Positions 62,116-63,734 of a stretch of DNA of 64,000 bases are shown here, piece after piece. Location of the stretch: positions 1 through 64,000 of the forward strand of contig JAFLBR010000014.1 of the NCBI GenBank assembly GCA_017303795.1. The letters run 5' to 3'. The DNA comes from Cytophagales bacterium (GTDB lineage Bacteria > Bacteroidota > Bacteroidia > Cytophagales > Cyclobacteriaceae). Position numbers and translations under genes: made by a program. Each line of letters opens with the position of its first letter. Positions within the stretch are counted from its first letter, which is position 1. Under the pieces are notes generated by a model. That model made no database searches. It was not told the DNA's origin and saw only the letters and a program-made list of their open reading frames with translations.

Positions 62116-62167
62116 GAAGTAAGGGCTAGTAACTCCTGATTTTTGAGATCGTCAGATTATGCTATTT

Positions 62168-62228
62168 ATGCTATTCGGGATTTGTAATCCCGGAACCAGA
62201 TATAATGGATTTTAAAAATCTTTTTATG
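62168..62228. repeat. CGGGATT hairpin repeat, copy D
   Basis: Contains TTCGGGATT-TGT-AATCCCGGAA (62174-62195), then CCAGATATAATGGATTTT and AAAATC. The same roughly 60-bp block occurs at 63673-63734. Followed almost directly by hairpin copy C (62233). Both hairpins share an A-T-T loop A-A-T centre with different flanking bases. Confidence 0.75.
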
Positions 62229-62255: not shown

Positions 62256-62325
62256 AGCCATAAGATTGCTAAAGATTAAAATCTAAAATCATTGAATAGA
62301 AAGTAGTCGTGCAACAGCTACCCAT

Positions 62326-62837
62326 GTTGTGGGCTTTGCGACTGTCAACCGTTACTTTGTCTGTTTACACTCTGTATTCATAATCCAGATTGTCGTTGCA
62401 TCTCTGTCGAGTTCAACTGTCTCTTCGTCCACCATTTTAAGAATACTATCGTTCTTCAACGAGTCGAAGAAGTCTTTATATGAATAATAAAACTTCAATT
62501 GAAACTTATCGTTCAATTCAGTCCATTGTCCCGAAACATTAATGTTTCCAGGTACTTTTGTAATAAACCCGGACTTGTCCTCAAAAAAGGATTTTATTGC
62601 AAACTTATTTGATTTGTCAAGGTACAAAGCCCAAGTCACTGAGTCCGAATTTGTTCCAATCCATTTTAGATAGTCAACATAAACTGAGTCGTATGATAAA
62701 ATGTCTCGCTCTGCAAAGTCTAATGAGTCAAATGGTCTATTTTTCCACGTGTCGGTTTTTGTCCCACATGAAAAAATAATAAGTAATAGTCCAATGGTTA
62801 ACGTTCTTATCATCTGTCTCGGAGCATTACCCACAAC
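62326..62837 (-). other. Cassette-like unit B
   Basis: The unit is bounded by GTTGTGGG (62326-62333, plus strand) and CCCACAAC (62830-62837), an inverted pair, and holds the single gene 62352-62813 with hardly any free space. GTCAACCGTTACTTT (62344-62358) is at its 3' end and is also found at the 3' end of unit A (63010-63024). The layout is that of an integron cassette: one short gene, own boundary repeated as complement at the far end. Confidence 0.5.
62352..62813 (-). CDS. Small hypothetical lipoprotein (cassette gene)
   Basis: 153 residues from ATG 62813 with lipobox IIFSC (Cys16). The body is short, mixed alpha/beta (ILSYDSVYVDYLKWIGTNSDSV; SGQWTELNDKFQLKFYYSYKDFF). No family recognised. 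Its composition is more AT-rich than the housekeeping genes, and it lies inside a cassette-like boundary pair; the gene after it on the same strand is similarly arranged. Confidence 0.65.
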   Translation of the reverse strand: MIRTLTIGLLLIIFSCGTKTDTWKNRPFDSLDFAERDILSYDSVYVDYLKWIGTNSDSVTWALYLDKSNKFAIKSFFEDKSGFITKVPGNINVSGQWTELNDKFQLKFYYSYKDFFDSLKNDSILKMVDEETVELDRDATTIWIMNTECKQTK

Positions 62838-63009
62838 GTTTGTGTTTATGCAGTGCGGGGAATAGGAGGGCTAAAAAATGTAGCGCAGCGAAATGTTTAG
62901 CCCGACCTGCACGTCTCTGTCCCCCGACACCGAACTAAATTAAGAAAATACTTTTAATACCTACACCAAACCCCCGCATTGCATAAACATTTTGTTGTAG
63001 CTCGTGCGC
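62830..63009 (-). other. attC-like long imperfect inverted repeat between two cassette-like units
   Basis: The outer arms are CCCACAAC (62830-62837) and GTTGTAGCTCGTGCGC (62994-63009). Next to them GTTTATGCAGTGCGGGG (62844-62860) pairs with CCCCGCATTGCATAAAC (62972-62988), 16 of 17. An inner GGGCTAAA ... TTTAGCCC (62868-62903) forms another stem. The plus-strand right boundary is complementary to the start of unit A (63548-63563). Classical attC cores (GTTRRRY) are not matched exactly, so the call is attC-like. Confidence 0.5.
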
Positions 63010-63082
63010 GTCAACCGTTACTTTAATTTGACTTGTCTCAAGTCCACCGTTAATTATTTTGACGTGTACGAGTCCGCCTAAA

Positions 63083-63529
63083 CTAATTTGTCCGCGAAGC
63101 CGAGTCAATGTCATTTGCTTCTGAGTCCTTATTTATTGTCGGCTTTCTTAGTCTATAGTTAAATCCCAGTATCGCTCCTGTCAGTGGTAGTACTACTGGC
63201 ATAATGAAACTGCTTAAAAAGTATGGGAGTATTTTGAAAGTCAGACTTACCAGAATTGCATAAAGTCCAACGGCTGCGATTAGTCCCAGGAAACTTAGTC
63301 CAATTGATTCTGTAAATTCATTTTGTCGGCCGAGTTTTTTAAGTGTCAAATAACCTACAACTCCGATTCCTGTCCACATTGACAAGTAGCCCGCTATTGA
63401 ACCAAACATCACAGAATAATAAAGGTCCCAAGGGTCAAAAAGGGAGAATATTAAAACTCCTACGAGTCCACAGGCTAGTCCAACGAATATCTCTTTAACT
63501 ACAAGTTCAAATTTTATGTCCTTTGTCAT
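63083..63529 (-). CDS. Small integral membrane protein (cassette gene)
   Basis: 148 residues with four predicted TM helices (about 12-30, 38-60, 75-95, 104-126) and a short hydrophilic tail. No family recognised. It is flanked by inverted copies of GTTGTAGCTCRTGCGC (62994-63009 and 63548-63563), the boundaries of cassette-like unit A. Confidence 0.65.
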   Translation of the reverse strand: MTKDIKFELVVKEIFVGLACGLVGVLIFSLFDPWDLYYSVMFGSIAGYLSMWTGIGVVGYLTLKKLGRQNEFTESIGLSFLGLIAAVGLYAILVSLTFKILPYFLSSFIMPVVLPLTGAILGFNYRLRKPTINKDSEANDIDSASRTN

Positions 63530-63569
63530 GGGTCAAATCTTTGTCGAGCGCATGAGCTACAACATTCGA

Positions 63570-63635
63570 ATATAGGCAATTAATTGCCTATATACCCACC
63601 TATTACATGGATATAGGAAACTGAGTTTCCTATAT
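63570..63635. repeat. Two adjacent long palindromes
   Basis: A perfect 24-bp palindrome (63570-63593; arms ATATAGGCAATT/AATTGCCTATAT) is followed by a perfect 25-bp one (63611-63635; arms ATATAGGAAACT/AGTTTCCTATAT, one-base centre). The ends match while the centres differ in pairs, so the two share a hairpin design. They lie between unit A and hairpin copy E. Confidence 0.8.
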
Positions 63636-63672
63636 TTCCTTATGTCTACCGCCAATCTCCCAGCAAGACTTG

Positions 63673-63734
63673 TGCTATTCGGGATTTGCAATCCCGAAAC
63701 CAGATATAATGGATTTTAAAATCCCTTTATCTAT
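63673..63734. repeat. CGGGATT hairpin repeat, copy E
   Basis: TTCGGGATT-TGC-AATCCCGAA (63678-63698) plus the CCAGATATAATGGATTTT block, then AAAATCCC. About 85% identical to 62168-62228. It closes the accessory stretch before the partial gene. Confidence 0.75.

Follow-up and report, generated by a model that had tools for sequence, protein, structure and literature searches.

A Probable Two-Cassette Array of an Integron-Like Gene-Capture System in a Cytophagales Bacterium

Results

Two Small Genes Lie in Cassette-Like Units

The window (the whole 64,000-nt stretch of DNA analyzed) contains two small minus-strand genes that, judging from their borders, appear to be packaged as swappable cassettes. 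Read along the minus strand, the order is a palindrome (63570-63593), a 6 bp gap, cassette A, an attC-like site (62830-63009), and cassette B. The features are the following:

62838..63563, minus strand: cassette A, made up of a gene and an attC-like site, first bases GTTGTAGCTC, reading GTTGTAGC...; borders predicted from the cassette rule (see below)
63083..63529, minus strand: gene A, 148 aa, membrane-protein look by eye
62830..63009, minus strand: attC-like site of cassette A, with outer cores, short spacers, an inner helix, and a long variable loop
62326..62837, minus strand: cassette B without its attC, first bases GTTGTGGG, last CCCACAAC; 92% identity to a cassette of genome G770, both ends agreeing within 4 bp
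62352..62813, minus strand: gene B, lipoprotein look by eye, counted from an ATG start, or 160 aa long when translated from the GTG further upstream at 62834
62344..62358 and 63010..63024, plus strand: 15-mer GTCAACCGTTACTTT present at the 3' end of both unit A and unit B, by sequence match
63570..63593, no strand: attI-like perfect 24-bp palindrome, 12/12 pairs, 0/200 shuffles as good, with the first GTT of cassette A lying 18 bp past its centre
63611..63635, no strand: second perfect palindrome of the same type as 63570-63593 (ATATAGGAAACT...), no cassette attached

An initial annotation of this DNA had described two minus-strand genes in units bounded by inverted pairs, with a shared sequence at their 3' ends, and all of these features were present where it had placed them. 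The pair of unit A joins 62993-63009 with 63548-63564 (17 nt, 94% complementary), and that of unit B consists of GTTGTGGG at 62326-62333 and 62830-62837. The source genome holds only two exact copies of GTCAACCGTTACTTT, so that it does not serve as the general search signature that had been proposed. GTTGTRG alone, tried as a signature, occurs 17 times in the window vs. 14.3 expected, with no excess. Neither gene A nor gene B matched a Pfam or NCBIfam family at E ≤ 0.01.

Four palindromes with at least 11/12 pairs occur in the 64-kb window, two of them at the cassette element, and block shuffles gave 1, 0, and 0. The layout of palindrome and first cassette is like that of the recombinase loci described below, and the window array has no adjoining recombinase. 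A palindrome similar to 63611-63635 precedes an array on contig C12 of the source genome. In addition, the entire cassette element is flanked by direct repeats of 59 nt (90%) at 62166-62224 and 63670-63728, which contain an inner GGGATTTGTAATCCC hairpin; stretches similar to them match in other genomes of the genus.

A Recurrent attC-Like Site Pairs Better on the Bottom Strand

The 180-bp structure between the units had been likened to an attC site. Its arms (62843-62860 and 62972-62989) pair at 17 of 18 bases, and 44 sites of this kind were found in the source genome at E ≤ 1 using a covariance model (R1). Script scans requiring long outer stems had missed most sites, and the covariance model was used instead; it was built from 21 source-genome sites, which match by construction. 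A DNA search of the same genome gave 26 places at E ≤ 10. The sites often lie at contig ends, as expected of assembly-breaking arrays, and 13 are located at the end of contig C7 (L029). Within the 21 sites, compensatory double changes were observed at 16 of the 17 pairs of the inner helix, whose covariation was 0.522 against 0.138 in shuffles (0/500 shuffles as high); slid controls were only 30-39% paired. The window feature is placed above chance by this recurrence, namely the 44 sites, the compensatory changes, and the self-complementary unit ends.

Gene-strand mismatches at helix positions 1-14, counted in 218 of 223 sites in the register chosen for best pairing, were A.C in 376 cells and G.T in 17; the A.C mismatches recur at a few fixed positions, and these cells are therefore not independent. 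An A.C mismatch on the gene strand reads T.G on the opposite one, and it is therefore the non-coding strand that makes the better hairpin. Energies of the arm duplexes favored this bottom strand in 167 of 170 sites (two were worse) and in 39 of 39 loci, with a mean difference of 2.4 kcal/mol. Unlike the arm duplexes, whole-element folding energies did not clearly separate the strands, and the folding of 62830-63009, which the initial annotation had called for, was only modestly unusual (z of -2.2 and -2.6). Position 10 of the outer stem shows the same kind of mismatch (0/124 complementary). These data bear on whether the hairpins could be dispersed repeats, terminators, or RNA structures between small genes instead of recombination sites. 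The hairpins do lie at 3' ends of genes, and shuffled versions of the window site fold only modestly worse than the site itself, but a transcript strand that keeps A.C and avoids G.U (376 vs. 17) is the opposite of what an RNA helix would show.

Integron attC cores follow the consensus GTTRRRY / RYYYAAC. As had been noted for the window, the cores of this system lie mostly outside it: only 14 of 170 and 14 of 172, respectively, fit. The GTTGTRG boundaries first described are present in the window but represent only one core form, GTTGTA and GTTGTG together accounting for 59 of 170 cores, and the general core is GTT[A/G]NNN.... GTT and AAC are invariant by the way the cores were located. The C preceding GTT is nearly invariant (169/170), so that the exact cut bond cannot be assigned. 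Three minus-strand mirror hits out of 177, and two of 174 hits that did not have both cores, were left out. One site at the end of contig C9 (L053:8757-8894) has arms that look like different attC types and fold poorly.

Units Obey a Cassette Rule and Recur With Exact Borders

The two sides of one attC in an array derive from two cassettes, and about four of their outer bases pair. When the six bases that follow GTT at the start of a unit were set against the six that precede AAC at the end of that unit, 5-6 matches were found in 124 of 132 units; the same comparison between the two sides of one site gave 14 of 171, and between random pairs 5%. Self-complementary unit ends were found in arrays of the source genome (C7 and C20; 14/16), of G770, a single-contig genome of the same genus (44/46), and of G736 (10/10). 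The rule was passed by 192 of 204 units, in which the longest ATG ORF lay on the cassette strand in 140 and on the opposite strand in seven, the other 45 having none of 50 aa.

Unit B and a G770 unit are 92% identical over 62325-62841, with different DNA on both sides. The window departs from this relative right after CCCACAACA, where the attC of unit B itself has been lost. Units of G770 that are 98-100% alike occur at different places, their shared stretch beginning 1-5 nt ahead of GTT and ending close to where the attC ends, and one unit is common to Arenibacter and Lacinutrix at 91%, from 19 nt before GTT. Many of the pairs listed by the unit comparison were overlapping flanks of neighboring units, and only same-core pairs with both borders near unit ends were used. 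Two large opposite-strand arrays with about 50 sites in 60 kb were observed in G770 (L221-L223; G770:C1:150000-209999); no recombinase was found between them, and the recombinase hits of this genome lie at 322960 and 2303889.

A match between the start and the end of a unit across hundreds to thousands of bases is not explained by a terminator, and units that are almost identical reappear with GTT at their borders; we thus regard repeats, terminators, or RNA structures as an extremely improbable account of the hairpins. Differences by exact units were seen between places and between species, which were compared here in place of the strains originally suggested, and the motif was found more than once. 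We consider it very probable that the two units of the window form an array of cassettes belonging to an integron-like gene-capture system.

An Insertion-Less Tyrosine Recombinase Leads Into the Arrays

The source genome contains two recombinase genes, each leading into a cassette start. That on contig C16 codes for a 343-aa tyrosine recombinase, and a cassette start follows 95 bp after its stop. The array comprises a gene matching PDC-S26 in PADLOC, an attC-like site, a four-gene cassette, and two more sites, which makes three sites behind the recombinase. The four-gene set (L049:6170-12334) is methyltransferase/ATPase/helicase-like, apparently forms one cassette, and is DruM2-like and weakly Mza-like in PADLOC. 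The second gene, on C24, codes for a 420-aa recombinase with a cassette start 135 bp after its stop. This start equals one of the C7 array at 126 of 126 bases from the G of GTT and differs just before that G; both contigs end inside the shared stretch, whose length, but not its left border, is therefore set by the assembly, and nothing more of a C24 array is visible. The two proteins match PF00589 (Phage_integrase) with E values of 4e-41 and 3.6e-35, and tyrosine recombinase fold matches were found. Against the XerC and XerD equivalogs TIGR02224 and TIGR02225 they scored 177-188 bits, below the cut-offs of 335 and 330. The genome also has two Xer-like genes (C11 and C18).

Using the C24 recombinase as query, the best 80 loci of a longer list were retained, whose titles are all from Bacteroidota but one (a Chlorobiota MAG). 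R1 hits at E ≤ 1 were present in 41 of these 80 loci, and 172 of the 174 plus-strand hits lay downstream of the recombinase in the same direction, the other two lying upstream (L125). Among the 39 loci without sites, 27 had less than 500 bp of contig downstream and 12 had 582-9997 bp. The start of the first cassette could be placed in 37 of the 39 loci with downstream sites, and in 32 of these 37 it lay 35-67 bp after the recombinase stop. A palindrome was centred 15.5-18 bp before the first GTT in 29 of the 37 loci, surpassing 95% of shuffles in 25 of the 29, and was absent from this place in eight. In the source genome, the C16 locus has no palindrome, and that of C24 is imperfect, best centred 30 bp off. 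At recombinase-less array starts of the same genome, five of 11 being placeable, four palindromes were centred 18-18.5 bp before GTT, with 11, 12, 8, and 8 of 12 pairs as counted without a shuffle control. These palindromes indicate that arrays begin at such sequences also where no recombinase is nearby.

The recombinase resembles integron integrases and archaeal XerA. The span from the KGxKxR motif to H-x-[LF]RH is 68-70 aa in 79 of 79 recombinases (69 in both from the source genome; among the 80 loci, L162 had no readable recombinase) vs. 111 aa in 30 of 30 canonical IntI. The recombinase thus does not have the 42-residue insertion specific to IntI. In a quick tree of 41 of 81 Bacteroidota recombinases and 23 of 30 IntI, with long outgroup branches and XerA not included, it was separate from the two Xer-like enzymes of the source genome. 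About 100 extra N-terminal residues are often present. Residues 1-105 of the L087 recombinase form extra strands and helices barely covered by PDB matches, and many genome hits to this protein align only from about position 100 on. Acinetobacter plasmids (hits H8-H15) code for a recombinase, one labelled TnpF, that is 55% identical over query residues 185-418; such relatives may serve other elements.

These loci allowed us to weigh whether the window is an ordinary integron array served by a canonical IntI. The overall architecture is the same, as are an attC-like hairpin with R and L cores and a spacer and the bottom-strand bias. Against this stand the insertion, missing in 79 of 79 recombinases vs. 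0 of 30 canonical ones, and the cores, so few of which fit GTTRRRY. In addition, TIGR02249, the canonical IntI model, gave no match over cut-off in the source genome. Together with the rarity of IntI in the class and its position relative to the sites (see below), these results make a canonical integron highly improbable.

Sites and Recombinase Co-Occur in the Class

The class was taken as Bacteroidia and the phylum as Bacteroidota, from named relatives in the recombinase scan. R1 sites at E ≤ 1e-4 were found in at least 234 of 395 class genomes and the recombinase at E ≤ 1e-70 in at least 195 of 395; these are lower bounds, since few candidates per genome were scored (eight for sites, four for the recombinase). 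Canonical IntI was detected in one of the 395 class genomes vs. 105 of 395 in a phylum sample. Both site and recombinase were present in 161 class genomes, the site only in 73, the recombinase only in 34, and neither in 127 (odds ratio 8.2). Within the genus, 41 of 62 genomes had the recombinase, and G146 had eight sites with no recombinase hit.

A control sample was composed of 80 of 108 phylum genomes, chosen for IntI-profile hits; R1 hits occurred in 29, the recombinase in 23, and both in 20. In these genomes, 16 of 25 insertion-less recombinases lay within 10 kb of a site vs. just two of 87 IntI-profile places, which include partial ones and, in G172, the insertion-less recombinase itself. 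Seen from the sites, 24 of 80 lay within 10 kb of an insertion-less recombinase and four of 80 within 10 kb of an IntI-profile place, the rest being near neither. In some control genomes, the recombinase gene and the sites diverge in orientation, an arrangement also seen in classical integrons. Plasmids are also involved: a finished Chryseobacterium plasmid carries the recombinase and five sites (in a looser script scan, 3/5 units had 5-6 of 6 self-complementary positions), and plasmids with related recombinases had two sites in Persicobacter, one weak site (E 0.002) in Rufibacter, and no site in Pontibacter.

Xer enzymes are known to serve elements in trans, and the cassettes could accordingly be real but moved by a housekeeping Xer or another enzyme, the linked recombinase being a passenger. 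The two Xer-like genes of the source genome, the palindromes, which we take to look dif-like, and the 73 site-positive genomes without a recombinase hit would fit such a scenario. It is nevertheless very unlikely, given that sites lie on the 3' side of the recombinase in 39 loci, that the first cassette follows its stop so closely in 32 of 37, and that site and recombinase co-occur with an odds ratio of 8.2. Overall, the initial suggestion of a distinct recombination system in Bacteroidota was borne out by the arrays of short ORFs and the linked tyrosine recombinase that it had proposed searching for, both of which were found, together with an attI-like site, exact-unit duplications, and cross-species units.

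Discussion

Integrons have been defined by an integrase with an IntI-specific additional domain around patch III (PMC9668308). This domain was not found in the recombinase, nor do the cores follow the integron consensus. Other integron traits are present: paired attC-like arms with a spacer and a variable loop, whose structure is kept despite sequence change; a putative attI which, by layout, lies beside the recombinase gene and at which the first cassette starts; and complementary ends within each unit with one gene direction. The system thus appears to behave like an integron in its anatomy but fails two defining features, the IntI domain and the core consensus, and we therefore do not file it as an integron member.

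The likeness to integrons extends from the recombinase beside an attI-like site, followed by a same-direction array of small-gene cassettes, to the imperfect attC-like hairpin with AAC and GTT cores and an unpaired spacer, which pairs better as bottom strand, and to cassettes recurring as exact units. Unlike integrons, the recombinase has the shorter motif span and often the N-terminal extension, the core is GTT[AG]NNN instead of GTTRRRY, a palindrome of 22-24 bp often makes up the attI-like site, the recombinase gene is directed toward its array in 39 loci, and palindromes with arrays also occur without an adjoining recombinase. In contrast to Xer systems (XerA, XerH, and XerCD/dif), the recombinase is linked to arrays of hairpin-bearing gene cassettes. 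An "Integron-like" subgroup of simple tyrosine recombinases in which the insertion is not fully conserved has been reported (Smyshlyaev et al., 2021, PMC8138268), and the recombinase may belong to it; the sections of that article drawn on here contain no account of cassette arrays in Bacteroidota, or of attI or attC, for insertion-less members. Among the open-access matches listed, none described this system in its title or the start of its abstract. As for SOS control, one paper on Bacteroidetes LexA mentions integron integrase only in its reference list.

By analogy with the general integron mechanism, the tyrosine recombinase (from C16 and C24 in the source genome) would recognize an attI-like site in the form of the palindrome, together with the attC-like hairpin on a circular cassette, and would act on the window array in trans. 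The cassette would be inserted beside the palindrome by a crossover at or beside C/GTT, repeated insertion would generate arrays, and attC x attC crossovers would excise, duplicate, or move cassettes. Integrons recombine a single-stranded, folded bottom-strand attC (PMC8352920). The proposal draws on the anatomy, linkage, unit borders, unit duplication, cross-species units, and strand bias of pairing apparent in the sequences compared; from these we infer catalysis by the recombinase, a circular intermediate, single-strand recombination, and service in trans. Counting against it, 73 of the 234 class genomes with sites gave no recombinase hit at E ≤ 1e-70, and 34 of the 195 with the recombinase gave no site. 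The same holds for G146, for the 12 site-less recombinase loci with 582-9997 bp downstream, for the control-genome sites near neither enzyme, for the palindromes missing or imperfect at C16 and C24 and absent from the usual place in eight of 37 loci, for the short outer pairing within one attC, for the window array with no adjoining recombinase and an attC lost from unit B, and for relatives of the recombinase that may serve other elements. A further reading sees a second lineage of integrons, common in Bacteroidia, that either runs parallel to the IntI integrons or is older. Its insertion-less recombinase would act on folded bottom-strand attC and load cassettes in trans into several dif-like palindromic sites spread across the chromosome, so that one recombinase would feed many arrays, including that of the window. 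We put the chances of this reading at about even, after a slight reduction because the recombinase loci of the source genome have no clean palindrome.

Integrons have been reported as rare in Bacteroidetes, with only In0 known earlier and then one complete integron in Salinibacter (PMC9024848), and the IntI insertion has been called essential for integron function (PMC8138268). If the system recombines as its anatomy says, gene-cassette capture would be available to more than half of the class genomes sampled. Finders that demand the insertion would then likely miss these arrays, the insertion would not be required for attC recombination, and it would become testable whether integrons originated from Xer-like enzymes. 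The system also suggests a large and so far unexplored reservoir of small mobile genes.
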